From Pseudomonas sp. B21-028 (lineage in GTDB: Bacteria > Pseudomonadota > Gammaproteobacteria > Pseudomonadales > Pseudomonadaceae): a DNA stretch of 64,000 nt. Both the position numbers and the translations under genes were made by a program. The stretch's first letter is position 1. Every line of letters begins with the position of its first letter. The notes below the pieces were generated by a model. The model was not told the origin of the DNA. It ran no database searches and worked only from the letters and a program-made list of their open reading frames with translations. The stretch spans positions 6,429,932-6,493,931 of the forward strand of contig NZ_CP087184.1 in the NCBI RefSeq assembly GCF_024749045.1. The letters run 5' to 3'. Positions 7,063 to 23,911 of the stretch are shown here, piece by piece.

Positions 7063-8028
7063 TCAGAAGCGCCGACAGTTCGCCAAGCCGGCTTGCAACG
7101 CTTCAACGTCTTGCGGCTGGCCGAAAATCAGTTCGAGCCGTGAATCCTGGCGCCATTCGCTGGCTTGCCAAGTCAGCGCCCCTCCATCCAATGCATTGGC
7201 TGACACCCAGCCGTCGTGACTGTGGATAACCAGCTTCGCCCGTTTCCAGTTCCCGCCTCGCAGCCATCCCGTCACGGCCGCAGTGTCGAAACGTTGACTT
7301 GGATGCCAACGCCAGCCGATGCTCCAACCCTCTTCTCGCTCCTGATACAGGCAGATCGGCAACGTTGGATCACTCCAGATCGCCGGCATCTGACCCACAT
7401 CCCTGGGCAGGCTCGAGTTATCCACAGCCCCACTCCCCCGCGCACCCCACCCCGGCAGCCTGCCGAGGGGCAATGCGGCCTGTTGCGTCCAGTGCTGCGC
7501 AAGGGGCGGTAGCTGGGCGGCGATGCGGGCGCGGTCGGTTTCACTGAGGCCTTCGGACTTGTTCAGCACCAGCAGCCCGGCATCGGCCAGCGCTTGCTGC
7601 TGCGCCTCGGGCAAAGGTTTGCCTTGGGCCAGCGCCTGGGCATCCAGGACCATCACGCAGGGCTGGACCGCCAGCACGCCGAGCCACGGCGGCTGTTGGA
7701 GCTGCAGCAGCAGTTGCGCAGGATGGCCCAGGCCGGAGGGCTCGATAAACAGCCGGTCCGGTCGCGCCTTGCGCAGCAGACGGCCGAGGCCGATCTGAAA
7801 CGGCGCGCCGTTGACGCAGCACAGGCAGCCCCCAGCCACTTCCCCCAGTGCGATACCATCGGCCGTCTGAGTCAACAAGGCGGCATCCAGGCCGATCTGG
7901 CCGAACTCGTTGATCAGCACCGCCCAGCGCTCATCGGCCGGGCGTTGGGCCAGCAATTGCCTGATCAGGCTGGTTTTGCCGGCTCCCAGGGAACCGGCAA
8001 TGACATGGGTGGGGATGTTCTGCAACAT
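7063..8028 (-). CDS. COG0523 (CobW/YjiA-type) GTP-binding metallochaperone
   Basis: 321-aa G3E-family GTPase. The P-loop is GSLGAGKTS (residues 12-20), the metal-binding CxCC is GCLCC (Cys68, Cys70, Cys71), the Walker B-like segment is DRLFIEPSGLGHP, and the guanine motif is NKSE. The C-terminal CobW_C domain is short. COG0523 proteins bind zinc and hydrolyse GTP; several are Zur-controlled. It is divergent from the small secreted gene at 8057 with only 28 bases between the starts, so its promoter probably overlaps that gene. No Zur palindrome is visible in that gap. It is a second COG0523 protein besides the ZigA-like one at 9221. Confidence 0.88.
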   Translation of the reverse strand: MLQNIPTHVIAGSLGAGKTSLIRQLLAQRPADERWAVLINEFGQIGLDAALLTQTADGIALGEVAGGCLCCVNGAPFQIGLGRLLRKARPDRLFIEPSGLGHPAQLLLQLQQPPWLGVLAVQPCVMVLDAQALAQGKPLPEAQQQALADAGLLVLNKSEGLSETDRARIAAQLPPLAQHWTQQAALPLGRLPGWGARGSGAVDNSSLPRDVGQMPAIWSDPTLPICLYQEREEGWSIGWRWHPSQRFDTAAVTGWLRGGNWKRAKLVIHSHDGWVSANALDGGALTWQASEWRQDSRLELIFGQPQDVEALQAGLANCRRF

Positions 8029-8056
8029 ACTCGGCGACTTTTGATGGAGGTGAACG

Positions 8057-8410
8057 ATGCGGATAATCGGTTGGTGCTTGTTGGCGCTGTTTTCGGACCA
8101 GGCACTGGCCCAGGCTTGCGTGGTTCACAGTCAAGCGGAGCGGCTCGATGTGAAAGTCTGCCAGCAGAACCGCAGTATCCCGCCCAAACTGTTCGCCGAC
8201 GGCTTCTGCCAACCGAACCTCGCCGGGCAGAAAGTCGACGTGCAATACGTCGATCAATGCCCCGGCGGTGCCTTTGGCATCTGCAGCAACGCCCAGGTTG
8301 CCAATATGCCTTACCGACAGGATATTCACTATTACGGCGTCGCCACCGATACCGCTTATCTCAAGCCGTTTTGTGAAGGCAAAAGCCAGGGTACCTGGCT
8401 CAAACCTTAG
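8057..8410 (+). CDS. Small secreted cysteine-rich protein, unknown function
   Basis: 117-aa protein with a signal peptide (MRIIGWCLLALFSDQALAQA). The mature part has six Cys (21, 35, 51, 68, 76, 106), which suggests three disulfides in the periplasm or outside. GGAGGT precedes the ATG at a good distance. No family is recognised. It lies among zinc-starvation genes, which hints at a link to metal supply, but that is inference from position. The last base of its TAG stop is also the first base of the MITE-like repeat at 8410. Confidence 0.75.
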   Translation: MRIIGWCLLALFSDQALAQACVVHSQAERLDVKVCQQNRSIPPKLFADGFCQPNLAGQKVDVQYVDQCPGGAFGICSNAQVANMPYRQDIHYYGVATDTAYLKPFCEGKSQGTWLKP

Positions 8411-8564
8411 GCTCTGTGTAAAAAGTCTTGAGACGCAGGTCAGGCAAGGCGAAAACAGCCGAGGAACGGCCGGGGTCGCGCTCGACTTTACGGGTTGTAA
8501 ATGAGCATTCCGAGGCTGTTTTCAACGCAGCATCACCGAGTATCAAGGCTTTTCATACAGAGCC
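8410..8564. mobile_element. MITE-like element with imperfect terminal inverted repeats
   Basis: A 155-bp stretch whose ends are inverted copies of about 25 bases: GGCTCTGTGTAAAAAGTCTT on the left, and on the right the complement of GGCTCTGTATGAAAAGCCTT. Inside, GAAAACAGCCGAGGAA is answered by a near-complement at about 8505-8524. It has no open frame for a transposase. The ends resemble IS5-type termini, so it is probably a non-autonomous remnant. No clear target duplication is visible. Confidence 0.6.
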
Positions 8565-8570
8565 CAGGTT

Positions 8571-9221
8571 TCAGGCCAGCCAGTCCAGCGTGAGGATCAA
8601 CCGGCGTTCGCCCGGGGCCAGCTCCGGCGAGCGATGAATCAGGCCGAAGCCTTCATTGCCCAGCCACTTCTCACCCTTGAGCAGCGCCACCTCGCCGCTG
8701 CAAAGCTGCTGGATCCTTTGCCGATCGCGGGGCTCGGCGTCAGGTTGAGCCAGCCACCGACGATCCATGGCGCCCTCCTCGAGCCATTCGCTGCCGGCAC
8801 CGGCATACGTCGTGATCAACCGCACCGGCACATGATCCACATGAAAGCGCGGGCACATGGCCTTGTCCAACGTCCGCAGGCGCAGGCCGACCCGCTTGGC
8901 GCCCAACAGGCAGGCGAAAGCGCTGACCAGCCAGGCGACATCGGCAACGAAGCCTTCGTAGCCGTGCAGGTCGCTGAAACCGGCGGCAAGCCCCTTCAGC
9001 TCAGGTTGAGTGTCCTCCTCAGGCATATCGAGCACCAGGGACTCAGCCAGCGGTTGATCCATCGAACGCACCAACGCCGCAAAATCACTGATATGCGCCG
9101 GAAGCTGACGCTGCCAGACCGCCAGGTTGGTGTCGTCCTTCAGGATCTGCGTCAGGGTCCGCGGGGTATCGCCCTGAACCTGCAGAACCTGGCGTTGCTG
9201 CTTCAGCGTAGGCGCCAGCAT
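8571..9221 (-). CDS. DUF1826 domain protein
   Basis: 216-aa cytoplasmic protein of the DUF1826 family, whose genes are usually next to COG0523 genes in Pseudomonas. Visible landmarks are VWQRQLPAHISDFAALV, then MCPRFHVDHVPVRLITTYAG (HxDxxxxR, reminiscent of an iron/2OG or cupin-like site) and LIHRSPELAPGERRLILTLDW at the end. Its ATG overlaps the stop of the upstream ZigA-like gene by one base (TGATG), so the two are co-translated and share the Zur-type operator at 10521. Enzymatic function is not established. Confidence 0.85.
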   Translation of the reverse strand: MLAPTLKQQRQVLQVQGDTPRTLTQILKDDTNLAVWQRQLPAHISDFAALVRSMDQPLAESLVLDMPEEDTQPELKGLAAGFSDLHGYEGFVADVAWLVSAFACLLGAKRVGLRLRTLDKAMCPRFHVDHVPVRLITTYAGAGSEWLEEGAMDRRWLAQPDAEPRDRQRIQQLCSGEVALLKGEKWLGNEGFGLIHRSPELAPGERRLILTLDWLA

Positions 9222-10429
9222 CAGGCCGCGACCTCGTCATGCCAGGAGCCGAAAGGGTCTGGCAGCAAGCGCCAACCCTCCATACCCAGGGCCATTTCCG
9301 CATCCGTGAGCAGGCATCCGTCCAGCTCTTCAGCGAGCTGATCGAAGTCGATGTTCTGCCCGATGAAGACCAATTCCTGGCGGCAATCCCCAGTGCCGGG
9401 CAGCCAGTTCTTCATGATCGCTGCGGTGCTTTCCGCGTCCTGGGGCCATTGATTCTTGGGTACGAACCGCCACCAGCGCCCGGCAAAACCATGCCGCATC
9501 AACCCGCCTGCCTGGGACCAACTACCCGCCTCTTCGGGTTTGCTGGCCAGCCAGAAGAAGCCTTTGGAGCGCAGCAACTTGCCGTTGAGCCAAGGTCGTT
9601 CGATCAGGTCAAAGAAGCGCTGGGGGTGGAAAGGCCCGCGCGCCCGGTAGACAGTCGAAGCGATGCCGTACTCCTCGGTTTCAGGCGAGTGCTCGCCGCG
9701 CAACTCTTGCAGCCAGCCGGGAGCTTGAGCTGCGCGCTCGAAATCAAAACGACCGGTGTCAAGGATTTCTCCCAGAGGCACCTGCCCCATGACCATGGGC
9801 ATAATCTTCGCGTGAGCGTTTAGACGCTTGAGGATAGCCACCAGCTCTTCCCGTTCGTGGCGGCTGATCAGGTCGATCTTGCTGATCAGAATCACGTCGG
9901 CGAACTCGATCTGCTCGATCAGCAGATCCGTGATCGAGCGTTCATCTTCCTCCCCCAAGGTTTCGCCCCGTGATGCCAGGTTCTCGGCGGCCTGGAAATC
10001 CGGCAGGAAATTTACGCCGTCGACCACCGTGACCATGGTGTCGAGCCGTGCGACATCGGCCAGGCTGCGACCTTCTTCATCGCGGAAGGTGAAGGTCTCA
10101 GCCACCGGCAAGGGTTCGGAGATCCCGGTGGACTCGATCAACAGGTAATCGAAGCGCCCCTCTCTGGCGAGTTGCCCGACTTCTTCCAGCAGATCTTCAC
10201 GCAGCGTGCAGCAGATGCACCCGTTGCTCATCTCCACCAGCTTTTCTTCGGCGCGGTTCAGGCTGACATCGCGCTGGATTTCGCTGCCATCGATATTGAT
10301 TTCGCTCATATCGTTGACGATTACCGCGACACGCAGGTTGTCACGATTTCGCAGGACATGATTGAGCAACGTGCTTTTACCGGCACCGAGGAACCCGGAG
10401 AGCACAGTTACGGGAAGACGATTGGGCAT
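9221..10429 (-). CDS. zigA: ZigA-like zinc metallochaperone GTPase (COG0523)
   Basis: 402-aa G3E GTPase thought to hand zinc to client enzymes during zinc shortage. The P-loop GFLGAGKST is at residues 12-20, the CxCC motif (GCICC) at Cys71, Cys73 and Cys74, [11 protein letters not shown] at about 105, and the guanine motif SKID at about 195. The CobW_C domain is large. ATG 10429 is chosen because GAGGA lies 8 bases upstream; an in-frame ATG five codons earlier lacks a site. A Zur-type palindrome lies 92 bases upstream and is shared with the divergent gene at 10579. The same gene order occurs in the zinc-starvation locus of P. aeruginosa. Confidence 0.9.
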
Positions 10430-10520
10430 CAGGTATATCCTCATCGGGCGGCCGTGTTGGAAGGTGTGTTTTGCGGCACGTTGGGTCAGGCTGCCGTTCG
10501 GTCAAGACGGCTCAGATTAT

Positions 10521-10533
10521 GTTATAGTATAAC
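10521..10533. promoter_or_regulatory. Zur-type operator between zigA and the secreted-protein gene
   Basis: Perfect palindrome GTTATAGTATAAC with single-base centre G, matching the gamma-proteobacterial Zur box core GTTATAnTATAAC. It lies 91 bases before zigA and 45 bases before the divergent gene, and should repress both when zinc is plentiful. Confidence 0.85.
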
Positions 10534-10578
10534 GATAAATGCTCGCTAGCTGAGAATTCAACTCTTTGAGAGTCATTG

Positions 10579-10968
10579 ATGCGCATTCTTTTGAAATTCA
10601 TATGTGCTGGTCTGACGCTGTCAATCGCCATGGAGACGTCCGCCCAGGCCTCGCTATTGGCAAATTGCACGCGTAGCGCGAACTTGCTGGCTTGTTCTGA
10701 CGAACAAGGAAATGCCTATAGCGTCATGACGGCCGGAAATACGGTGTATCTGCGCGGTTTCGAGGTGATGGGCAAGCGTCATTGGGCACAAACGACAAGC
10801 CGTTATGGGCAGTTGACCTTCTTCACTGGCTTGGCCTCCGACGGTGAAGCCTGGGTCGGCTACAGCCGACGTGTCGGGTGGACGACGTTGAATCGCTTCT
10901 CCAGTTCGGGTGGTGCAGCCGGCAAATTTATCTGCGGGCGCGTGAATGGCTGCCAGGATTCACGCTGA
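10579..10968 (+). CDS. Small secreted protein, probable zinc-starvation gene, unknown function
   Basis: 129-aa protein with a signal peptide (cleavage likely after SAQA, residue 24). The mature part has four Cys (30, 39, 119, 125), arranged as two close pairs at the ends, which would close the chain by disulfides. The middle is strand-rich with aromatic residues (VYLRGF, HWAQTTSRYGQLTFF, WVGYSRRVGW). No family is recognised. ATG 10579 is preferred to the TTG just before it, with GAGAG upstream. It is divergent from zigA over a Zur box, so Zur control is expected. Confidence 0.72.
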   Translation: MRILLKFICAGLTLSIAMETSAQASLLANCTRSANLLACSDEQGNAYSVMTAGNTVYLRGFEVMGKRHWAQTTSRYGQLTFFTGLASDGEAWVGYSRRVGWTTLNRFSSSGGAAGKFICGRVNGCQDSR

Positions 10969-10984
10969 TGTTTCACGTGGAACG
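10969..10984. other. parS: parS centromere site 1
   Basis: TGTTTCACGTGGAACG, one base off the perfect 14-mer GTTCCACGTGGAAC, directly after the stop codon of the preceding gene. ParB (gene at 54749) is expected to bind here. Confidence 0.88.
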
Positions 10985-11039
10985 AACAAGAAGGAAAGCA
11001 TGAAATTCTGTTCATGAAAAAGATCTGGTCGAATTTATT

Positions 11040-11052
11040 GTTACACTATAAC
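11040..11052. promoter_or_regulatory. Zur-type operator upstream of folE2
   Basis: GTTACACTATAAC, one mismatch from the palindrome GTTATAnTATAAC, in an AT-rich stretch ending 30 bases before the folE2 start. It probably controls folE2 and the ABC importer behind it. Confidence 0.82.
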
Positions 11053-11082
11053 ATTAAATTGACCCCATGACGGATCTTGACC

Positions 11083-11979
11083 ATGAACGCGTTTACGCTT
11101 CCGGACATTGCTGCCCAAGCTTCGCGCCAAGCCTTGCCTCTCGACTGGGTAGGTATGTGCGGCGTCGTCTTGCCTGTGTTGATCGATGGTCAACCACTGA
11201 GCGCCACCGCTGATCTTGGCGTCAGTCTCGACGATGGCGAAGCTCGCGGCATCCATATGTCCCGCCTGTACCTGGCACTGGAGATGCTCGAGCATTCACC
11301 ACTGTCACCTTCGCTGCTGCAACGTGTCTTGCTGCAATTCCTCGACAGCCATGAGGGCCTCTCCCACGCCGCATCCCTGACCATTCATACCGAACTGCTG
11401 CTCAAACGCCCTGCCCTCGTCAGCCCGTTATCGGGCTGGAAACGCTATCCGGTGAGTATCGAAGCTCAGCTGAAAAACGCTGTGTTCCACGTGGAACTGA
11501 ACGTCCAGATTCCTTATTCATCCACCTGTCCATGCTCGGCTGCCCTTGCCAGACAACTGATCCAGCAGCAATTCGTGGAGGACTTTGCCAATAAAGCCGT
11601 GGAGCACGGAGAAATTCTGGCCTGGCTGGGTTCCACAAAAGGCATTGTCGCCACACCCCACAGTCAACGCAGCGTCGCGTCCCTGAACGTTCGGTTGAAC
11701 GCAGATATCCACCACTTGCCACTGTCGCTGTTCATCAATCAGGCTGAAGCAGCCTTGGGCACCGCGGTACAAACCGCGGTCAAACGCGCCGATGAACAAG
11801 CATTCGCCCTCGCCAATGGCCAGAACCTGATGTTCTGCGAAGACGCCGCTCGACGATTGAGCCTGGCCTTGAGGCAGTCCCCCGACATCATCGCACTCAA
11901 TGTGCGCGTCGTTCACGCAGAAAGCCTGCATGCCCATGACGCAGTGGCGCAAAGCCGCTGGACCCGGGAGGCAGCATGA
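11083..11979 (+). CDS. folE2: GTP cyclohydrolase I type 2 FolE2 (GCYH-IB)
   Basis: 298-aa enzyme that converts GTP to dihydroneopterin triphosphate, the first step to folate and queuosine. Unlike zinc-bound FolE it works with other metals, so many bacteria induce it under zinc starvation. The family motif IPYSSTCPCSAALARQ, with the catalytic Cys149, is present, as are GIHMSRLY and YHxE-like features near the C-terminus. ATG 11083 is used; TTG 11077 is in frame. A parS site lies inside the gene. Its stop overlaps the start of the ABC ATPase (ATGA). Confidence 0.95.
   Translation: MNAFTLPDIAAQASRQALPLDWVGMCGVVLPVLIDGQPLSATADLGVSLDDGEARGIHMSRLYLALEMLEHSPLSPSLLQRVLLQFLDSHEGLSHAASLTIHTELLLKRPALVSPLSGWKRYPVSIEAQLKNAVFHVELNVQIPYSSTCPCSAALARQLIQQQFVEDFANKAVEHGEILAWLGSTKGIVATPHSQRSVASLNVRLNADIHHLPLSLFINQAEAALGTAVQTAVKRADEQAFALANGQNLMFCEDAARRLSLALRQSPDIIALNVRVVHAESLHAHDAVAQSRWTREAA
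11483..11498. other. parS: parS centromere site 2, inside folE2
   Basis: TGTTCCACGTGGAACT contains the perfect 14-bp palindrome GTTCCACGTGGAAC at 11484-11497. It is read as Val-Phe-His-Val-Glu-Leu codons of folE2. Confidence 0.92.
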
Positions 11980-12644
11980 TCAATTGCCAGGCTTTGCGCT
12001 GGGGCCCGCCCGGGCGCCCTCTGACACCCGAACTGAATCTGGAGCGCCCCACTGGCAGCCTGACAGCGATCATCGGTGCCAATGGCTCGGGTAAAAGCAG
12101 CTTGCTGAAGGTCCTCGCTGGGCTGCAAAAACCTCTGTCCGGAAAGCTCACGCTGACAGTTCCTCGTCGGGGTGGCGTGTCCTTCCTGGCGCAGCAGCAA
12201 CACCTGGATCGACAATTTCCCATCAGCCTGCAAGAGCTGGTGGCCGCTGGGGCTTGGGGCAGCCGACAAACAGCGGCCCAGCGAAGCCAGCGACTCGGAA
12301 CGGTATTGGAGAACTGGGCGTTGACGGGCCTGGAAAATCGTCCGCTCATGGCGTTGTCCGGAGGCGAATTGCAACGTGCCCTGCTCGCTCGCCTGAGCCT
12401 GGCCGAAGCGCCATTGCTGTTACTCGATGAACCCCACGCGGCACTCGACGAAGAAGGCCAGACACTGTTGTGGAAACATATTCATGGCTGGCATGCCGAG
12501 GGTCGTACCCTGGTGGTGGTGTGTCATGACCTTGCCGCTGTACGCCGGCATATTCCCCACACTTTGTTGGTAAGCCACATGGGCTGCACATTGGGGCGCA
12601 GCGTCGATGTGATCGCCCAACAACCCCATATGAAGGTGGCTTGA
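11976..12644 (+). CDS. Metal (zinc/manganese) ABC transporter ATP-binding protein
   Basis: 222-aa ATPase that powers a metal importer at the inner membrane. Walker A is GANGSGKSS (about residue 34-42), the Q-loop is SFLAQQQHLD, the signature is LSGGELQRALLARL, Walker B is LLLLDEPHAALDE and the switch His is VVVCHD. It resembles ZnuC but is shorter. It is translationally coupled to folE2 (ATGA overlap) and to the permease (TGATG overlap). Position after a Zur box suggests zinc as the substrate. Confidence 0.92.
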   Translation: MINCQALRWGPPGRPLTPELNLERPTGSLTAIIGANGSGKSSLLKVLAGLQKPLSGKLTLTVPRRGGVSFLAQQQHLDRQFPISLQELVAAGAWGSRQTAAQRSQRLGTVLENWALTGLENRPLMALSGGELQRALLARLSLAEAPLLLLDEPHAALDEEGQTLLWKHIHGWHAEGRTLVVVCHDLAAVRRHIPHTLLVSHMGCTLGRSVDVIAQQPHMKVA

Positions 12645-13510
12645 TGCTCGCGGCCACCCACCTCTGGCAGCCCTTCCAGGAATTCGTCTTCATGCGCCGG
12701 GCTTTGCTGGGCGGCCTGGTACTGGCCTGCAGCACGGCACCGTTGGGGGTATTTCTGATCCTGCGCCGCATGAGCCTGATCGGCGACGCCGTCGCCCATG
12801 GCATTCTGCCCGGTGCCGCGCTGGGCTTCTGGTTCGCCGGATTGAGCCTGCCAGCCTTGACGTTGGGAGGCCTCGGCGCGGGCCTGGGCATGGCCGGGCT
12901 CGCGGCTTGGGTGACGCGCCGAACCGGTCTGCGGGAAGACGCCAGCCTCGCGGCGATTTATCCCATCTCCCTGGCGGCCGGCGTGTTGATCCTCGGCATG
13001 GCCGGTAAACGTCTGGATCTGCTGCACCTGTTGTTCGGTTCGGCCTTGGCGGTGGACGGCCCGACACTCACCGGCATGCTTTGGGTATCGGCGGCCAGCC
13101 TGATTGCCATGGCGCTGATCTACCGACCTTTGTTGCTCGACACCCTGGATCCGTTGTTCCTGCAAACCGTCAGCCGTCTCGGCCCGTTGGCCCACGGTGT
13201 GTTCCTGACCCTGGTGGTGTTGAACCTGGTGATCGGTTTCCAAGCGATTGGCGCTCTCATGGTGGTCGGTCTGATGATGTTGCCAGCCGCCTCCTCGCGG
13301 TTCTGGAGCCGCCGCTTGCCGGCCCTGATGGCCATCGCGGCGCTGCTCGGTTGCCTCTCGGTCTGGTTCGGCCTGTTGCTGTCCTTCTATTTCTCCCTGC
13401 CCAGCGGCCCGGCCATCGTGCTGGTTGCGGGAGTGTTGTATCTGTTGTCCGTGATATTCGGTCCGGTGCACGGTCTGCTGCGCCGCCCGCCCTTGCTCAC
13501 ATCCCCATGA
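12644..13510 (+). CDS. Metal ABC transporter permease (ZnuB family)
   Basis: 288-aa ABC-3 family membrane protein with about 8-9 hydrophobic helices. Typical segments are RRALLGGLVLACSTAPLGVF, LRRMSLIGDAVAHGILPGAA (the family motif SLxGDAxxHxxLPG) and FQAIGALMVVGLMMLPAA. It forms the channel for the ATPase encoded just upstream and the binding protein downstream. ATG 12644 overlaps the previous stop. Nothing odd in length. Confidence 0.93.
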   Translation: MLAATHLWQPFQEFVFMRRALLGGLVLACSTAPLGVFLILRRMSLIGDAVAHGILPGAALGFWFAGLSLPALTLGGLGAGLGMAGLAAWVTRRTGLREDASLAAIYPISLAAGVLILGMAGKRLDLLHLLFGSALAVDGPTLTGMLWVSAASLIAMALIYRPLLLDTLDPLFLQTVSRLGPLAHGVFLTLVVLNLVIGFQAIGALMVVGLMMLPAASSRFWSRRLPALMAIAALLGCLSVWFGLLLSFYFSLPSGPAIVLVAGVLYLLSVIFGPVHGLLRRPPLLTSP

Positions 13511-13521
13511 GGTGTTCCCCG

Positions 13522-14397
13522 ATGCGCGCTCTGCTCGTGCTGTTCAGTCTGATGCTGTCGATGTCCTTGTCCGCCGCCGAGAAACTTCAGGTGGTCACCA
13601 GCTTCAGCATTCTCGCCGACATGACCCGACAGGTCGGTGGCGAGCATATCCAGATCACCAACATGGTCGGGCCGGATGCCGACGCGCACACATACGAACC
13701 AACGCCGGACGATGCCAAGGCATTGCTCGCTGCAAAATTGATCATCAAGAATGGATTGGGCTTCGAGCCGTGGCTGGATCGCCTGGTCACCAGCACGGAA
13801 ACCCACGCCCAAGTCATCAGCGCCAGTCGCGGCGTAATTCCGCGTTCGCTGGATGAAGACGGTGAGACCATCCCCGACCCTCACGCCTGGCATAATCTGG
13901 CGAATGCCGAGCTGTATATAAATAATATCGCCAAGGCGCTGGAAGCCGCCGATCCGGCCAACAAAGCCGACTATGAGCGCAACAGCCAAGCGTACCTGAA
14001 GAAGGTCTATGCGCTGCTCACAGATGCCAAGGCCAAGCTCGGCTCCCTGCCGCCTGGCAATCGCAAGATCGTGACGTCTCACGATGCGTTCGGTTATCTG
14101 GGTCAGGCCTATGGCATCGACTTCATGGCGCCACAGGGGTTGTCCACCGAACGCGAACCGTCAGCCGCCGAAGTTGCAGCGCTGATTACCCAGATTCGCC
14201 AGGCACACGTCAAAGCGGTGTTCATGGAAAACATCAAGGACGCGCGCCTGCTCAAGCAGATCGCCGATGAAAGCGGCGCTCACATCGGCGGCACATTGTA
14301 TTCCGATGCCCTCGCCGCCAGCGGTCCGGCCAGTACCTTCACCGGCCTGTTCGAATACAACCTCAATACGCTGTACGACGCGCTGTCCAAACCGTAG
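13522..14397 (+). CDS. Metal ABC transporter substrate-binding protein (ZnuA/PsaA family)
   Basis: 291-aa periplasmic cluster A-I binding protein. A signal peptide (MRALLVLFSLMLSMSLSAA) precedes EKLQVVTSFSILADMTRQVG. The four metal ligands are visible: His56 (ADAHTYEP), His121 (DPHAW), His187 (TSHDAFGY) and Asp262 (LYSDAL). The His/Asp-rich loop of classic ZnuA is missing, and only DEDGETIPD stands there. An alternative ATG at 13507 overlaps the permease stop, but GAGGTG just upstream favours 13522. Zinc is the likely substrate because of folE2 and the Zur box. Confidence 0.92.
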   Translation: MRALLVLFSLMLSMSLSAAEKLQVVTSFSILADMTRQVGGEHIQITNMVGPDADAHTYEPTPDDAKALLAAKLIIKNGLGFEPWLDRLVTSTETHAQVISASRGVIPRSLDEDGETIPDPHAWHNLANAELYINNIAKALEAADPANKADYERNSQAYLKKVYALLTDAKAKLGSLPPGNRKIVTSHDAFGYLGQAYGIDFMAPQGLSTEREPSAAEVAALITQIRQAHVKAVFMENIKDARLLKQIADESGAHIGGTLYSDALAASGPASTFTGLFEYNLNTLYDALSKP

Positions 14398-17877: not shown

Positions 17878-19785
17878 CTACCCTGGCTCCTGGACTTTGA
17901 GCAATGGCTCCTGAAAGCGTAGCAGTCTTCCGGCATTTCCCAGTACCAGCAAAGTGCTCAGATTATGCAGCAGGGCCGCGATCATCGCCCCCGCCGCGCC
18001 AAGCCAACCGAACGCAGCAAAAGCGACAATCGCCAGCGTCCAGCCCAGGCCGATGATCACGTTGACCTGAAGCGTACGCCGACACTGGCGGCTGAGGCGT
18101 ACGCAGGTACCGAGCCGCCTCAGGTCGCTGCCGATCAATACGATATCCGCCGACGCCAGGGCGATGTCCGCACCGCCCGCGCCCATCGCGACCCCCACCA
18201 CCCCGGCCTTGAGCGCCAGGGAGTCATTGATACCGTCGCCGACGACCATGGGCCGGAAGCCATTGTCGATTTCCGTCATGACCCGCTTGAGCTTGTCCTC
18301 CGGCAACGCCTGGGCCTGTACGTCGGTAATTCCCACTTCCCGCGCCAGCGTGCTGGCCACGCTCTGGCGGTCACCCGTGAGCAACAGTTGCCGCCCCAGA
18401 CCCAACGTCCGCAACTCAGCCATGGCGACCTGGGCTTCCGGCTTGACGCTATCGGCCAGCAGCAGCCAGGCGAGGAATTGTCCACCCAGCGCCAGCCCGG
18501 CAATCGGGCCGTCATGATCAGGTACCACCGACGTTTCGATACCCTGCTGAACAAACAACTCGGGCCGGCCCAGAGCCGCTTCGCCCTGGCTGGTCATCGC
18601 CACCACACCCAGGCCCTGGCGCTCGTGAATGTCCGTCAATGGCAGATATTTTTCCGGTTCCACCAACCCTGCCAATGCCCGGCTGACCGGATGGCTGCTG
18701 GCGGATCCAAGGCTCGCGGCCAACGACAACAGGGACGCCCGATCGCTCTGTGGGCTTTCGATGGACTGCAGGCGCAAAGCGCCATAAGTCAGGGTTCCGG
18801 TCTTATCGACCACCAGTGACGTCAAGTCCGCCAGCTCTTCCAGGAAAGCCGAGCTACGAATCAGGATGCCATGGCGTGCCGCTACCGCGATCCCTGCAAT
18901 AGCGGTCGCCGGCGCCGACAACACCAGCGCGCAAGGACAGGCCGCCACCAGCACCGCCAACATCGCCTGGGCATCGTTGGTAACGAACCAGGTCACCGCC
19001 GCCAGCAGCAACACCAGCACCAGATAGCTGCCGGCATAACGCTCCAGCAATCGGGTGATGGGCGGCTTCGAACGTTCGGCGTTTTGCATCAGCGCGATGA
19101 CCTTGCCCAGCGTCGACTCGTGGCCTGTGCGAGTCACTTCCAGACGCAGCAATCCATCGAGATTGATCGCGCCACCAAACACCTCGGTGCCCACCACCGC
19201 TTCCAGCGGCACCGACTCACCGGTAATGGGCGCGGTGTCGAGGCTGGCCTGGCCGGACAGCACCCGGCCATCGGCCGGTACGCGATCACCGGCACGCACC
19301 TCTACCGTGTCGCCGGGTCGCAGCGTGGCGTTGTCGACTTCAATGATCGAACCATCGGCCAACATCTTGCGTCCCAAACTACGTGTCAGTTGACCCAAGG
19401 CGTGGATGGCTTCCTGGGAACCGATGACGCTGCGCTCTTCCAGCACATGGCCAAAGATCATGATGATCGGCAGCAGCGCAGCCGTCAGCAGATCCCCCGT
19501 GGCCCAGGCCCCCAGCATCGCCAAGGCGATCAACTGGTCGGTGATGCCATGCAGGCTCGGATAACGCAGGCTGTACCAAGCCGACCGCATCACCGGCACC
19601 GCGACCAACAGCGAAGCGACACCCAGTAGCAACTGGCTGACCCCGGTCTGCTCCGGCGACCAGACGCGCCATACCAGACCCAACGCGAGCAGGCCGAGGG
19701 CGAGCATCGCCAGGGTCAACTGGCGGGCGGCCATACGTTGTTCGGCGCTAGACAACATTGGAACGGTGACGGTTTGCGCGCTCAT
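17878..19785 (-). CDS. P1B-type heavy-metal ATPase lacking an N-terminal metal-binding domain
   Basis: 635-aa inner-membrane pump. TGES-like TGE is at 188-190, the transmembrane metal site CPC at Cys283-Pro-Cys285 (ACPCAL), the phosphorylated Asp327 in DKTGTLT, and the hinge GDGINDS near 545. There is no HMA domain or His tail at the N-terminus. The last helix reads HNLSTLLVLGNAGRLL, where Zn/Cd pumps have Asp-Thr-Gly and Co-type pumps have His-Glu-Gly, so the subtype is unclear. It is the last gene of an operon with three SPFH proteins and overlaps the previous stop by 4 bases. Direction of transport and metal are not settled. Zn is suggested by the Zur-like box at 23899. Confidence 0.9.
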   Translation of the reverse strand: MSAQTVTVPMLSSAEQRMAARQLTLAMLALGLLALGLVWRVWSPEQTGVSQLLLGVASLLVAVPVMRSAWYSLRYPSLHGITDQLIALAMLGAWATGDLLTAALLPIIMIFGHVLEERSVIGSQEAIHALGQLTRSLGRKMLADGSIIEVDNATLRPGDTVEVRAGDRVPADGRVLSGQASLDTAPITGESVPLEAVVGTEVFGGAINLDGLLRLEVTRTGHESTLGKVIALMQNAERSKPPITRLLERYAGSYLVLVLLLAAVTWFVTNDAQAMLAVLVAACPCALVLSAPATAIAGIAVAARHGILIRSSAFLEELADLTSLVVDKTGTLTYGALRLQSIESPQSDRASLLSLAASLGSASSHPVSRALAGLVEPEKYLPLTDIHERQGLGVVAMTSQGEAALGRPELFVQQGIETSVVPDHDGPIAGLALGGQFLAWLLLADSVKPEAQVAMAELRTLGLGRQLLLTGDRQSVASTLAREVGITDVQAQALPEDKLKRVMTEIDNGFRPMVVGDGINDSLALKAGVVGVAMGAGGADIALASADIVLIGSDLRRLGTCVRLSRQCRRTLQVNVIIGLGWTLAIVAFAAFGWLGAAGAMIAALLHNLSTLLVLGNAGRLLRFQEPLLKVQEPG

Positions 19786-20834
19786 TGCTCAGCTCCCTGA
19801 ATAATCAGGCGGGAATCGTCTTTCGGGTCGACCGTGGTCACTGACCCGGCCTGACGGAGAATGGCGGGCATGCGCTCGCGGTATAAGCGCAACAGCAGTT
19901 GCGGATCAGTGTCCTTGGTCTTCGCCAGGCTGAGCACGGTAGCGGTGTCGGCCGAGGCCTTGGCGAGCCGTTCGCTGGCCTGGGCATGGGCCACTTGCAG
20001 AGTGCGGTCGGAATCCTGGCGAGCGGTCTGGGTCAGTTTCTCGGCTTCGGTGCGGGCATTGGCAACGGCCTTATCAGCTTGCTGGCTGGCCGTCAGCACC
20101 GCATTGAACGCGTTCACCGCCGGGCCCGGCAGACTCGACTGGACGTCGACCCGCACCACTTCGATCCCCAAGCCCTGCCCCGTTGCGGCAAGATCGGTCA
20201 GCCGTCGGTTGATGCCTTGCACGAGATCGCCGCGCAGGCGTTCGCGGCGTTCGGCGGCCTGGTTGTCACTGCCGATCAGCTCGGGACGGGCGACCAGAAT
20301 CGTGTCCAGGTCCCGAGCCGCTGCGAGGGTTACCGCGCTACGGGTGACCAGGCGATCCAGTGCCGGCAGAACATGCTCACCCTGCAAAACGAACGCATAG
20401 GGCTCGGTAACTTTGTAGAACACCCGCACATCCAGTTGCACCACTCCGGCGTCACCGGTCAATAAATAGCCAGAGCCGGCCAGGGCATCACTGACCGGCG
20501 AGGCAAAACTGGCGACCCGATCAGCCTGCAAGGCCGCATCCGAGCGCAGCAGGTTTTCCACGCGCCGCTCCAGGACTCGATCCGCGGCCGGCAGCAGGAT
20601 GACTTGTTCCACGGGACGCGGCCACGCCAATAGCAGCCCGGCATTTTGAATGCGATCCAGCGCGCCAAAGTGCAGCACCACGGCGCGGTTTTGAGGGTCG
20701 ATCTGTCGAACGTTGGAAAAGACCCAAGCCAACGCAGCCAGGATTGTGACTGCGTACAGAGCCAGAAACGCCACTCGCCCCGCTTGAATCCAAGGGCTGG
20801 ATAACTCATTTGTTCCACGTGGAACCAAACTCAT
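19782..20834 (-). CDS. SPFH/band 7 protein, HflK-like (paralogue, not the canonical hflK)
   Basis: 350-aa membrane protein. One N-terminal transmembrane helix (VAFLALYAVTILAALAWVF, about 20-38) is followed by the SPFH domain (IDPQNRAVVLHFGALDRI, then DVRVFYKVTEPYAFVL) and a long Ala/Gln/Glu coiled coil (QADKAVANARTEAEKLTQTA onward). It resembles HflK, which with HflC forms a cage around FtsH. The canonical hflKC pair sits elsewhere in Pseudomonas, next to hflX and hfq. A parS site is written into codons 3-8 (LVPRGT). It overlaps both neighbours by 4 bases. Confidence 0.85.
   Translation of the reverse strand: MSLVPRGTNELSSPWIQAGRVAFLALYAVTILAALAWVFSNVRQIDPQNRAVVLHFGALDRIQNAGLLLAWPRPVEQVILLPAADRVLERRVENLLRSDAALQADRVASFASPVSDALAGSGYLLTGDAGVVQLDVRVFYKVTEPYAFVLQGEHVLPALDRLVTRSAVTLAAARDLDTILVARPELIGSDNQAAERRERLRGDLVQGINRRLTDLAATGQGLGIEVVRVDVQSSLPGPAVNAFNAVLTASQQADKAVANARTEAEKLTQTARQDSDRTLQVAHAQASERLAKASADTATVLSLAKTKDTDPQLLLRLYRERMPAILRQAGSVTTVDPKDDSRLIIQGAEQ
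20811..20826. other. parS: parS centromere site 3, inside the HflK-like gene
   Basis: TGTTCCACGTGGAACC contains the perfect palindrome GTTCCACGTGGAAC at 20812-20825. It encodes Val-Pro-Arg-Gly-Thr near the protein N-terminus. Confidence 0.92.
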
Positions 20835-21871
20835 GGTTGTGTTCCACCTTTGAGTTCCACTGAAGGCGGACCATCAACCAACACCCGGAAAGGCGCCGCA
20901 TCGGTGCGCAGGATCAGTTTGGTGCCAGGGCTGACAATGGTGCCCAGGGTGTCCAGCGAACGCAGCAGGTTATACAGCTGGGGCGAACCGGCGTAAGCCT
21001 TGCCATAAATTTCAGCGGCCTCGACCCGGGACTGTGCCTCGATATCGGCCGCCTTCACCGTAGCATCCGCCTGCACGATCCGCGCATCGCGTTCGGCGGC
21101 CGAGCGAATTTGCGCGGCTTCGCGTTTACCTACGGCGGTGCGTTCGGTGGCGATGGTTTCCCGCTCGGCACGCATGCGATCCACCGTCGCGGTCAACGTC
21201 ACCGAAGGCAAGGTCAGACGCTCGATCCCCACTTGCAGCACCCGCACGCCGTAGGTGGCGAGCAGTTGCTGTTCAATCTGCTGGCGCAACTGCGCTTCGA
21301 AATCGCCGATGCGTACCTGGCTGGCGTCGGTGTTGACCAGATTCGCCAAGTCAAAACTGGCGGCCGTGGTTTCCAGGGCCGATCCCACGAACGTGCGAAT
21401 CTGCCGGGCGGCCTCGTCCGGTTGGTTCTGCACTGCGCGCATGAAACGCTGGACGTCGTCCGGATCACCCTGCACCTGCCACGCCACGTAGGCCTGGACA
21501 ATGATGCGTAAGCCGTCACGGGTGCCGACGTCCTGCAGACCGCTGGACGTCGTGCGCAGCCGCAAGTCCACCGGAATCGCCGCCTCGAACGGCGCCGGCC
21601 AACGCCAGCCCAGGCCGGGCTGCAACAATACCCGCGCCGGATTGCCGAAGCGGGTGATGACGGTCGCCTCCCCCGAGCGCACCTGGACCAGGCTCGCGGC
21701 CGCGACGGCAAAAGCTACCAGCAGCGCCGCCCAGCCCATTCGCCGCCAGGGAAACGGACCCGCTTCCTGTGGGTCGCCATGATGATGGTGGTGATGCCCA
21801 TGATGATGACCGGCATGGCCGTGGTCATGACCGGAGTGATCGTGATGATCGTGGGAAGAAGACTGGCTCAA
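20831..21871 (-). CDS. SPFH/band 7 protein, HflC-like, with His-rich N-terminus
   Basis: 346-aa membrane protein. The first 35 residues form a cytoplasmic tail of His, Asp and Gly (HDHHDHSGHDHGHAGHHHG, then HHHHHHGD) with more than 15 His, a likely zinc or other metal sink. One transmembrane helix follows (GWAALLVAFAVAAASLV), then an SPFH domain beginning VRSGEATVITRFGNPARVLL and a coiled coil (ERDARIVQADATVKAADIEAQ, split at 20). The C-terminal end is HflC-like (GTKLILRTDAAPF). The His tail next to a metal ATPase in one operon argues for a metal role rather than pure protease control. Confidence 0.86.
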   Translation of the reverse strand: MSQSSSHDHHDHSGHDHGHAGHHHGHHHHHHGDPQEAGPFPWRRMGWAALLVAFAVAAASLVQVRSGEATVITRFGNPARVLLQPGLGWRWPAPFEAAIPVDLRLRTTSSGLQDVGTRDGLRIIVQAYVAWQVQGDPDDVQRFMRAVQNQPDEAARQIRTFVGSALETTAASFDLANLVNTDASQVRIGDFEAQLRQQIEQQLLATYGVRVLQVGIERLTLPSVTLTATVDRMRAERETIATERTAVGKREAAQIRSAAERDARIVQADATVKAADIEAQSRVEAAEIYGKAYAGSPQLYNLLRSLDTLGTIVSPGTKLILRTDAAPFRVLVDGPPSVELKGGTQP

Positions 21872-23829
21872 TGGGCAGCTCCTGGCTGGATAAGGTTACG
21901 CGGCGATGCGGGATCTGCCGGAAGCGTGAAAGTGCGCAGGTCGATGGTCGGCGCGTTGCCGCTGCCGCCCAGACGGTGATCGAGGATCAGCAACTTGGCA
22001 TTGCCAAGGCCCCGGCTCAGTTGGCTGAGGTACTGCTCCAGCACAAAGGCGTGGCCGGCCGTGGCGTAGGCCTTGCGTTCAGCACTAAAGCGCAAGTCGG
22101 AAGCCTGGGCGGTGGCGTTGATTTCCCGGGCAGTGGCCTGGGCCTGGTCGTGGGCAATACTGGCTTGCAGTTGTGCCTGATTGGTCTGCTCCGCCGCCGC
22201 ACCGCGTTCCCGGGCAATCAATGCCTGGGCACCGATTTGTGCCGCTTGTACACCGTGATAGGCATTGGCCGCTCCCGCCGGCGGATGGATCGCCTCCACC
22301 ACGGTAGCCAGGATTTCCACGCCGCTGTCGAGCGTCTGCAAATCGGTTTGTACAGCCCGACCGATTTCATCGGCCAGGCTGACACGATCCGCGCCCAACA
22401 AACCGTCCAGCGTGCGCGAGGCGAACTCATGCACCAGAATGCGGCTGGCGGTACTGCGAATCAACGTGGGGATGTCGGCGCTGTTGTAGGTGGCTGCCAG
22501 CGCCGCCGCATCGGTAAGGCCAATGCGATAGACAAAGCGCACATCCATGTTGACGATCTGAAAGCTCTGCTGATCGGCACGACGGCTGGCAATCACTTGG
22601 GATTTATCGTTCACATGGCTGGCATCCCACAACCGATTGGCAATCGCCGGTGCCGGCCCTTCCGCTGAATCGGCCTCCGTGCTCGCACGGCTTTCGCTGA
22701 CGCTGGTGGCCAGTTCATGGACGATGCCATTTTCGACGTTCAGCACCCGACCCAACGGCCACGGCAAGCCGAACTGCAGGCCAGGACCGAACACCTCCAC
22801 CGGTTTTCCAAAACGCTCGTAAATGCCGCGCCCTTGCAGTGGTACTTCATGCACACCCGTGAGCAGCCAGCCCACCAGCGACACCAGCGCCAGCACCGGC
22901 AAAAAGGCCCGGCGCATGTAGCTGAATGCCCAGATCTGGCGCAGGTCAATGCCGAAACGGTTGTGCAATTCATGCTGCAGGGCCAACAAGGGTTGCGGTG
23001 GCCAGCGCAGCAGATCGGCGATGACGCTACGACCCAGCAAGGTCGGCTCCAGGGAGTCCCGGCGCGGGCTGAACAATGACAGCAGGGCCCGCAGCAGCAA
23101 CTCCACCGCCGCCAGCCCAGGCAACAACCCCATCAGCACTGCCAGGCGCACCGGCCAGATGGACGACTCATCAGCAAACAACAGGCACAGCGCGCCGAGC
23201 ACCAGCACGATAATCGCCAGGCGGGTCAGTTGCGCCAGCGGCGGCGCTTCCGGCCATTCAAGGGTGGATTGCTGAGCCAGTTGGCGTTCAAGTACCAACA
23301 AGCCGAACGCCAACAGCACTGAGAGCACTGCCCCCACATTGGCCGATGCGCCAAGCGTGGCCGCCGGCAGGGTCAGATCCCAGGCTTGCTCCAGACTCAG
23401 CAGCGCCAACCCTGCCCAACCGGCCAGCCACAACGTCGGCGCGCCGATCTGGTTCAGCAGGCCGATCCAGCGCGCGCCGATGCGCTCCAGCAATCGCTCA
23501 TACCAGCCGGATGGCTCTACCGGTTCGCGTTCGATGACCGGGATAACCGCCATCGGCAGCAATGCCCTGCTGCGCCACTGCGTCACCCACCAGGCAGATT
23601 GCAGGCCGGCCACCAGCACCAGCAATGCCGCACTTTGACTCGCCAACAAGGCCGGCCACATCGATTGCGGCGAAAACAGCCCGACAAAGAAGCCGGACAC
23701 CAACCCCAGACCCGCCAGGACAGCCAGGGCGAAAGCGATCCGCCGAAGGCGTCGCCCCTGGGACTGCGCCTGCTGAAAGCGTGGCCGCTCGGCCACTTGT
23801 GCTCCCTCGACATCAAGATCGACTTGCAT
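21868..23829 (-). CDS. Large polytopic SPFH protein (HflK-like domain behind a multi-helix membrane domain)
   Basis: 653 aa. The first 340 residues hold about seven hydrophobic helices (for example LAVLAGLGLVSGFFVGLF, LWLAGWAGLALLSL, GAVLSVLLAFGLLVL, LTRLAIIVLVLGALCLLF). A last helix (FLPVLALVSLVGWLLTGV) leads into an SPFH domain (LQGRGIYERFGKPVEVFGPG) with a coiled coil of Ala, Gln and Glu (TNQAQLQASIAHDQAQATAR). Canonical HflK has a single helix, so this is a fusion or expansion. The first gene of the operon. ATG 23829 is chosen; TTG 23853 is an in-frame alternative without a ribosome site. A Zur-like palindrome lies 70 bases upstream. Confidence 0.82.
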   Translation of the reverse strand: MQVDLDVEGAQVAERPRFQQAQSQGRRLRRIAFALAVLAGLGLVSGFFVGLFSPQSMWPALLASQSAALLVLVAGLQSAWWVTQWRSRALLPMAVIPVIEREPVEPSGWYERLLERIGARWIGLLNQIGAPTLWLAGWAGLALLSLEQAWDLTLPAATLGASANVGAVLSVLLAFGLLVLERQLAQQSTLEWPEAPPLAQLTRLAIIVLVLGALCLLFADESSIWPVRLAVLMGLLPGLAAVELLLRALLSLFSPRRDSLEPTLLGRSVIADLLRWPPQPLLALQHELHNRFGIDLRQIWAFSYMRRAFLPVLALVSLVGWLLTGVHEVPLQGRGIYERFGKPVEVFGPGLQFGLPWPLGRVLNVENGIVHELATSVSESRASTEADSAEGPAPAIANRLWDASHVNDKSQVIASRRADQQSFQIVNMDVRFVYRIGLTDAAALAATYNSADIPTLIRSTASRILVHEFASRTLDGLLGADRVSLADEIGRAVQTDLQTLDSGVEILATVVEAIHPPAGAANAYHGVQAAQIGAQALIARERGAAAEQTNQAQLQASIAHDQAQATAREINATAQASDLRFSAERKAYATAGHAFVLEQYLSQLSRGLGNAKLLILDHRLGGSGNAPTIDLRTFTLPADPASPRNLIQPGAAH

Positions 23830-23898
23830 ACCACCCCAGCATTTGGCGATCAAAAACCGGGCATGTGGACAGATTCCACAGCCTTTGCGTTATAGGGC

Positions 23899-23911
23899 GT
23901 TACCTTATAAC
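23899..23911. promoter_or_regulatory. Possible Zur box upstream of the SPFH/ATPase operon
   Basis: GTTACCTTATAAC: the right half TATAAC is perfect and the left half GTTACC differs by two bases from GTTATA. Centre base T. It lies 70 bases before ATG 23829, a normal operator distance. Weaker than the boxes at 10521 and 11040. Confidence 0.55.

Follow-up and report, generated by a model that had tools for sequence, protein, structure and literature searches.

Why should three SPFH-family proteins share an operon with a metal pump? The question is raised by four genes, P1 to P4, on the reverse strand of a 64,000-nucleotide stretch (the window) that forms the end of the 6.49 Mb single-contig genome of Pseudomonas sp. 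B21-028. P1 (21868..23829) encodes a polytopic SPFH protein of 653 amino acids from its ATG, or of 661 from a TTG at 23853; P2 (20831..21871) an HflC-type SPFH protein of 346 amino acids with a TTG start; P3 (19782..20834) an HflK-type SPFH protein of 350 amino acids; and P4 (17878..19785) an HmtA-type P1B-ATPase of 635 amino acids that has a CPC motif and lacks an HMA domain. The operon is the ortholog of the hmtA cluster PA2439-PA2435 of Pseudomonas aeruginosa, and is in that sense already known; what has gone unrecognised so far is the partnership of its SPFH trio with its pump, which we consider likely. We lean, by somewhat more than an even chance, towards a metal-import module under Zur repression, with P4 organised or enclosed by a hetero-oligomer of the HflK/C type.

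Open reading frames (ORFs) and Pfam domains agree on a four-gene operon of three SPFH proteins and an ATPase without an HMA domain, as a first-pass annotation of this DNA had proposed. The Band_7 gathering score of 23.6 was exceeded by P1 (73.9 bits, E 2.2e-20), P2 (110.1 bits, E 1.7e-31) and P3 (64.2 bits, E 2.1e-17), which places them in the SPFH superfamily, and P4 carries the E1-E2_ATPase and Hydrolase domains. Adjacent genes overlap by 4 nucleotides (nt) throughout; the ATGA overlaps described earlier hold at P2/P3 and P3/P4 but not at P1/P2, which is TTGA. A terminator-like stem-loop with a T-rich tail, a consensus match only, lies 3' of P4 (17767..17787, reverse strand), in a region that has 6 such sites where shuffles average 5.4.

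The make-up of the hmtA cluster, three HflK/HflC-family genes and then an HmtA-type P1B-ATPase, is found here with the same families and the same order as in PA2439-PA2434, and with putative Zur control. The ATPases are 81% identical over 619 amino acids (P4 against the P. aeruginosa-group protein), and P1, P2 and P3 are the counterparts of PA2439/PaFlo5, PA2438/PaFlo6 and PA2437/PaFlo7. The published sources name these genes in different ways: PA2434-PA2439 comprise hmtA (PA2435) and three HflK/HflC-family genes in PMC4542158, PA14_33110/33080/33070 equal PA2437/PA2438/PA2439 in a table of PMC9431628, and PA14_33070/33080/33110 become PaFlo5-7 in a 2026 survey of SPFH proteins (PMC13086221). 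The first-pass annotation had known of no described counterpart, a claim that must be given up, since induction of PA2439-PA2435 by zinc depletion, and binding by Zur, are already in print (PMC4542158, PMC8531726, PMC11761036). The closest species-named relatives of P1 were those of P. corrugata and P. mediterranea, at 93-94% identity.

We scanned about 85,000 species genomes and found 452 places that encode a P2 relative, possibly including other SPFH genes. The best 80 were read, and 15 more regions brought the set to 95 loci which, being picked by P2 similarity, are closer relatives. All 95 hold P1-P2-P3-P4 in this order on one strand, amounting with the window to 91 distinct operons. The P2 query also detected the operon on 10 plasmid records (Rhizobium, Burkholderia, Paraburkholderia and Klebsiella), and seven of these loci were read, all seven with the four genes in order; the search for gene order that the first-pass annotation had suggested thus found the order in genome and plasmid loci alike. 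For an unselected sample we took 149 genomes of the genus, the window's included, with limits of E<=1e-60 for P2-type and E<=1e-180 for P4-type genes. Both were present in the identical 87 genomes, and in every one of them the two genes shared contig and strand, with a spacing of 1025-1185 nt. This co-occurrence (87/87), with an order conserved in three proteobacterial classes, supports the view that SPFH proteins and pump form one device.

The block was found in alpha-, beta- and gammaproteobacteria. Between the window and a Rhizobium-type genome, identity was 60% for the SPFH part of P1, 68% for P2 and 61% for P3, compared with 33% for HflC and 36% for HflK, an excess which indicates transfer of the block in one piece from class to class. 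In samples of its distribution, the P1 query matched 1 of 369 genomes of the class (its own only) and 11 of 398 of the phylum. Among 121 genomes of the family of G460, P2 queries matched G460 alone; in the order of G608 they matched G608 and G550 out of 148 genomes, and in genus g273 they matched 13 out of 25. The canonical hflK-hflC pair was retained in all four genomes checked. PMC13086221 places the trio and its context in a small set of species from several classes, suggests horizontal transfer, and lists the trio in two of the ten other Pseudomonas that serve it as references; the link to the ATPase and the count of 87 in 149 add to that account. Two copies (L151 and L149) lie near Tn3 or insertion sequence (IS) genes on conjugative-typed plasmids of Klebsiella aerogenes and Burkholderia ubonensis.

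Aeruginosa-type operons differ from that of the window in two respects. The aeruginosa-group ATPase has a histidine-rich N-terminal tail, which P4 of the window lacks, and nine aeruginosa-type loci have about 600-640 nt of extra DNA between P3 and P4 (L120, L096, L119, L124, L125, L030, L032, L025 and L026), an insert absent from the window. In L120, L124 and L032 the insert encodes a protein of about 150-175 amino acids with a likely signal peptide, perhaps PA2436-like.

Zinc regulation of the operon is well supported, and the operon's own Zur-like box is the candidate site. In P. aeruginosa, PA2434-PA2439 were raised by factors of 5.6 to 14.4 in a znuA mutant, and the Zur site predicted there is weak (PMC4542158); purified Zur shifted the PA2439 promoter in an electrophoretic mobility shift assay (EMSA), completely only with zinc (PMC8531726). 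Proteomics found PA2435 and PA2437-PA2439 raised in zinc depletion, not all of them significantly (PMC11761036); the HmtA system was up under calprotectin (PMC8557868), and N-acetylcysteine, whose effect the authors read as zinc starvation, raised PA2437-PA2439 (PMC9431628). In the window, the box GTTATAAGGTAAC (23899..23911, reverse strand) precedes the P1 ATG by about 70 nt and has one mismatch to GTTATANNATAAC. As a single site it is statistically weak: at up to two mismatches the whole window holds 7 strand-matches against a shuffle mean of 2.03, and 5 of 100 shuffles reach 7. It is convincing because it is conserved across loci. When up to 300 nt upstream of P1 and 60 nt of the gene were compared with GTTATANNATAAC in the 95 fetched loci and the window, a box with at most two mismatches turned up around the P1 start in 93 of 96, while 45 of 1920 mononucleotide shuffles had one; the 96 loci share ancestry and are not 96 independent tests. 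The palindrome reported earlier at 23899 is present, and the zinc link proposed together with it holds. Upstream of P1 in the Rhizobium-type loci L097, L153 and L154, a common palindrome-like GATACGTAATAACGTAT replaces the Pseudomonas-type box.

Tree and structure search agree with the first-pass annotation that the SPFH proteins are kin of HflK and HflC. P2 falls next to HflC (support 90/79) and P1 and P3 fall with HflK (96/89); each forms a clade of its own at 99-100, apart from the canonical proteins. The best match of the P2 model in the PDB was HflC (7vhq_G). None reaches the equivalog cut-offs, which are 159.4 for HflK (TIGR01933; P1 52.2, P3 95.2) and 134.4 for HflC (TIGR01932; P2 95.4). 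P1 begins with membrane helices, followed by a periplasmic SPFH domain and a long coiled coil. Its predicted membrane domain (residues 21-324; 22858..23769, reverse strand), as read from an AlphaFold2 model, has six helices and a seventh before the SPFH domain; the predicted local distance difference test score was mostly >90 at residues 21-90 and 131-250. The top 12 VIA-align rows for this domain were cation diffusion facilitator (CDF) proteins, with weak Foldseek matches of P1 to such proteins (E 0.1 and above). Profile comparison detected no CDF homology, with an hhalign probability of 0.2% against 18 CDF sequences, and a Pfam comparison of 40 P1 proteins at E<=10, its listing capped at 25 families, did not show Cation_efflux; the CDF-like helix arrangement is a lead only. 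No nfeD, the mark of an NfeD-linked flotillin context, occurred among the scanned window neighbours or in four annotated plasmid loci. Broken frames were seen in P2 of L099 and in P3 of L045 and L050, through a stop or frameshift, or a sequencing error.

With a topology like that of HflC, the SPFH bodies would be periplasmic and the tails cytosolic. On the periplasmic side, a stretch of P1 (22255..22617, reverse strand) contains H405, H515 and H525, which are histidine in 103 of 103 loci; H371, H467 and H618 are histidine in 95-96% of the same loci. At the H515 site, four canonical HflK proteins carry Arg, Gln or Ala; at the H525 site they carry Asp or Glu, and they are gapped across the stretch that holds H405. 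These three periplasmic histidines could form the metal entry side. The first-pass annotation had also described a histidine-rich tail on the HflC-like protein. The tail exists, but at the N terminus of P2 (residues 7-31; 21779..21853, reverse strand), before the membrane helix, where it is predicted to be cytosolic, as the N-in orientation of HflC leads one to expect. At least 6 histidines occur in this tail in 95 of 96 loci, with composition conserved and sequence not. Four annotated P2 relatives (P0123, P0143, P0217 and P0229) lack it with their start codons as annotated. Of the 96 loci, 30 have a P4 tail with at least 5 histidines. With 5 histidines as the limit, 98 distinct operons divide into 66 with a tail on P2 only, 30 on both proteins, 2 on P4 only and none on neither. 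The earlier suggestion that the P2 tail gathers zinc for the pump does not survive for an importer: a tail expected on the cytosolic side cannot collect metal from the periplasm. It would instead take in, buffer or sense metal after import, or supply the pump should P4 export.

In the zinc exporter ZntA, K693 and D714 are the membrane Lys and Asp of the exporter type. With the ZntA/CadA P1B-2 zinc exporters (4umv) P4 shares a P1B core and the CPC motif (C283-C285; 18931..18939, reverse strand), both cysteines of which are invariant in 96 loci, and it scores 511.3 bits against the TIGR01525 cut-off of 346.25 for heavy-metal P1B-ATPases (NCBIfam). Unlike ZntA, it has no HMA domain, Thr and His607 in place of Lys and Asp714, and an invariant His113 for Glu214; a ZntA-like ATPase of the same genome (L146) has the Asp. 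H607 (17965..17967, reverse strand), which aligns with D714, is invariant in the 96 loci, as are H79, H113, H305, H365, H424 and C568. P4 also misses the ZntA equivalog cut-offs by far (NF033775, 280.6 against 1240; NF008262, 310.9 against 1005), and by sequence signature we reject a ZntA-type exporter. HmtA import was, according to reviews, reportedly described by Lewinson in 2009. Review text states that HmtA overexpression raised cellular zinc and copper. Zur repression, induction by starvation and this reported metal accumulation together point to import.

In the mechanism that we favour, low cytosolic zinc would cause Zur to leave the box at 23899, and P1, P2, P3 and P4 would be made together. 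P4 would move zinc, perhaps copper, from periplasm to cytosol. P2 in the HflC places and P1 and P3 in the HflK places may build a mostly periplasmic hetero-oligomeric ring or cage around or beside P4, which would be its client instead of FtsH; the additional P1 helices might anchor it or contact the pump. The invariant periplasmic P1 histidines would mark the entry side, and at the exit the cytosolic histidine-rich tails, carried by P2 and in some lineages by P4 too, would take in, buffer or sense the metal. We infer the physical complex, the cage and its contacts, the path of the metal and the role of the histidines. A fuller version, in which the operon is a transferable metal-import machine with a dedicated three-component SPFH cage around the P-type ATPase, whose P1 histidines load the pump, whose P1 membrane domain, CDF-like in its helix arrangement, lies in the cage floor and whose exchangeable P2/P4 tails take the metal, is tentative, and we would put its chance at about one in three.

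Such enclosure has precedents. FtsH is corralled within an HflK/C assembly, and AQP1 and UT-B are each encapsulated by stomatin (PMC12407830); the stomatin domes around AQP1 and UT-B (9zd2) show an SPFH oligomer enclosing a transporter, in a human erythrocyte protein that is homomeric and works without a metal pump. The operon resembles the E. coli HflK/HflC-FtsH assembly (7vhp, 7wi3, 9cz1) in that P2 is of HflC type and P1 and P3 are of HflK type in tree and structure search. It departs from that assembly in scoring below the equivalog cut-offs, in having three subunits and additional P1 membrane helices, and in its partner gene, a metal ATPase and not ftsH.

Several observations weigh against the import module or parts of it. 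At the P2 and P4 limits used, the module was absent from 62 of the 149 genus genomes. Conserved gene order indicates shared function and is no proof of a complex, and the predicted template modelling scores of 0.47 (P1) and 0.51 (P2) are uninformative on assembly. A box with at most two mismatches was found in none of the seven plasmid loci, and L053, L097 and L027 also lack one near P1; the aeruginosa-type L119 has a poor best match that lies 264 nt off, which is in line with the weak Zur site reported for PAO1. In a NanoString series hmtA mRNA was low and showed no repression by zinc (PMC8531726), and a review, contrary to the EMSA text, has Zur binding the uptake promoters except that of hmtA; review text also holds that HmtA import still needs confirmation. 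Deletion of PaFlo5-7 in PA14 had slight phenotypes, slightly less biofilm and Galleria attenuation (PMC13086221), under a zinc supply that was apparently constant in a paper whose main text has the word 'zinc' once. The two operons that lack a P2 tail each carry one on P4, yet complementarity of the tails is not significant (joint chance about 0.1), because 32 of 98 operons carry a P4 tail.

The likeliest of the rival accounts concerns the direction and the metal of the pump. P4 may export, or may handle copper and not zinc, for instance in the loading of metalloenzymes of the periplasm or membrane, with the cytosolic tails feeding the pump. Exporters collect metal on the side where the histidine tails are expected, most P1B-ATPases export, and HmtA has been described for both copper and zinc; the failure of hmtA mRNA to track zinc (PMC8531726) fits as well. 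So does the Paraburkholderia sprentiae plasmid locus (L150 1-4310), where two metal ABC permease genes and a copper chaperone PCuAC gene precede the operon. Yet Zur repression and induction in zinc depletion fit import, as does the review's report of raised cellular zinc and copper, and the exporter Lys and Asp have given way to Thr and His607. We judge export or copper handling unlikely.

The other two accounts leave the pump out of the trio's work. The kinship with HflK/HflC invites the view that these are modulators of FtsH, itself a zinc protease, in zinc starvation, joining or replacing HflK/HflC and merely having a promoter in common with the pump; PMC9431628 reads the induction of PA2437-PA2439 as FtsH modulation, and PMC11761036 hints likewise. 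No ftsH is among the four genes or was seen adjacent in the window or in four annotated plasmid loci, the same ATPase is the partner in all 87 genomes and across three classes of proteobacteria, hflK-hflC persists in the four genomes checked, and P1, P2 and P3 all score under the NCBIfam HflK/HflC cut-offs, so that we hold this to be decidedly unlikely. Bacterial SPFH roles are varied, and the biofilm and Galleria effects of losing PaFlo5-7 (PMC13086221) would also suit proteins that only organise lipids or protect membrane proteins under zinc starvation, co-regulated with the pump and without direct action on it. A general membrane role is hard to reconcile with one ATPase lineage adjoining the trio in every copy read, plasmids included, and to this account we give very little credence.

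The box pattern recurs elsewhere in the window and genome. The 6.49 Mb genome has four exact GTTATANNRTAAC sites, at 10521 and 11040 of the window, in the operon promoter, and near a TonB-dependent-receptor-like ORF; the count is no higher than that of a reversed control pattern (6 strand-matches each), and it is the locations that are telling. The sites at 10521 and 11040 are the Zur-like boxes of a zinc-type island (7063-14397) with two cobW/COG0523 genes (7063-8028 and 9221-10444), a DUF1826 gene (8571-9221), folE2 (11077-11979), an ABC transporter (11976-13510) and a ZnuA-type binding protein gene that ends at 14397, and this island counts in favour of zinc regulation. In L126 (G000:C1:2746311) a perfect Zur-like box lies in the 5' end region of the putative TonB-dependent receptor ORF, inside its longest frame, and an AraC-like ORF adjoins it.

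Two literatures meet at this operon. The zinc papers mention HflK/HflC-like genes beside hmtA, and the SPFH survey covers PaFlo5-7 in a main text where neither 'ATPase' nor PA2437-9 occurs (PMC13086221); the two have not been joined. In the literature searched, whose coverage mostly leaves preprints and subscription papers outside, we found no paper with both SPFH and HmtA and no role for the SPFH trio in HmtA function. If our reading is true, this would be, as far as the literature searched shows, the first SPFH assembly with a metal pump as its client. If the trio acts on HmtA, an orphan SPFH function and the doubtful direction of HmtA import would become testable together.

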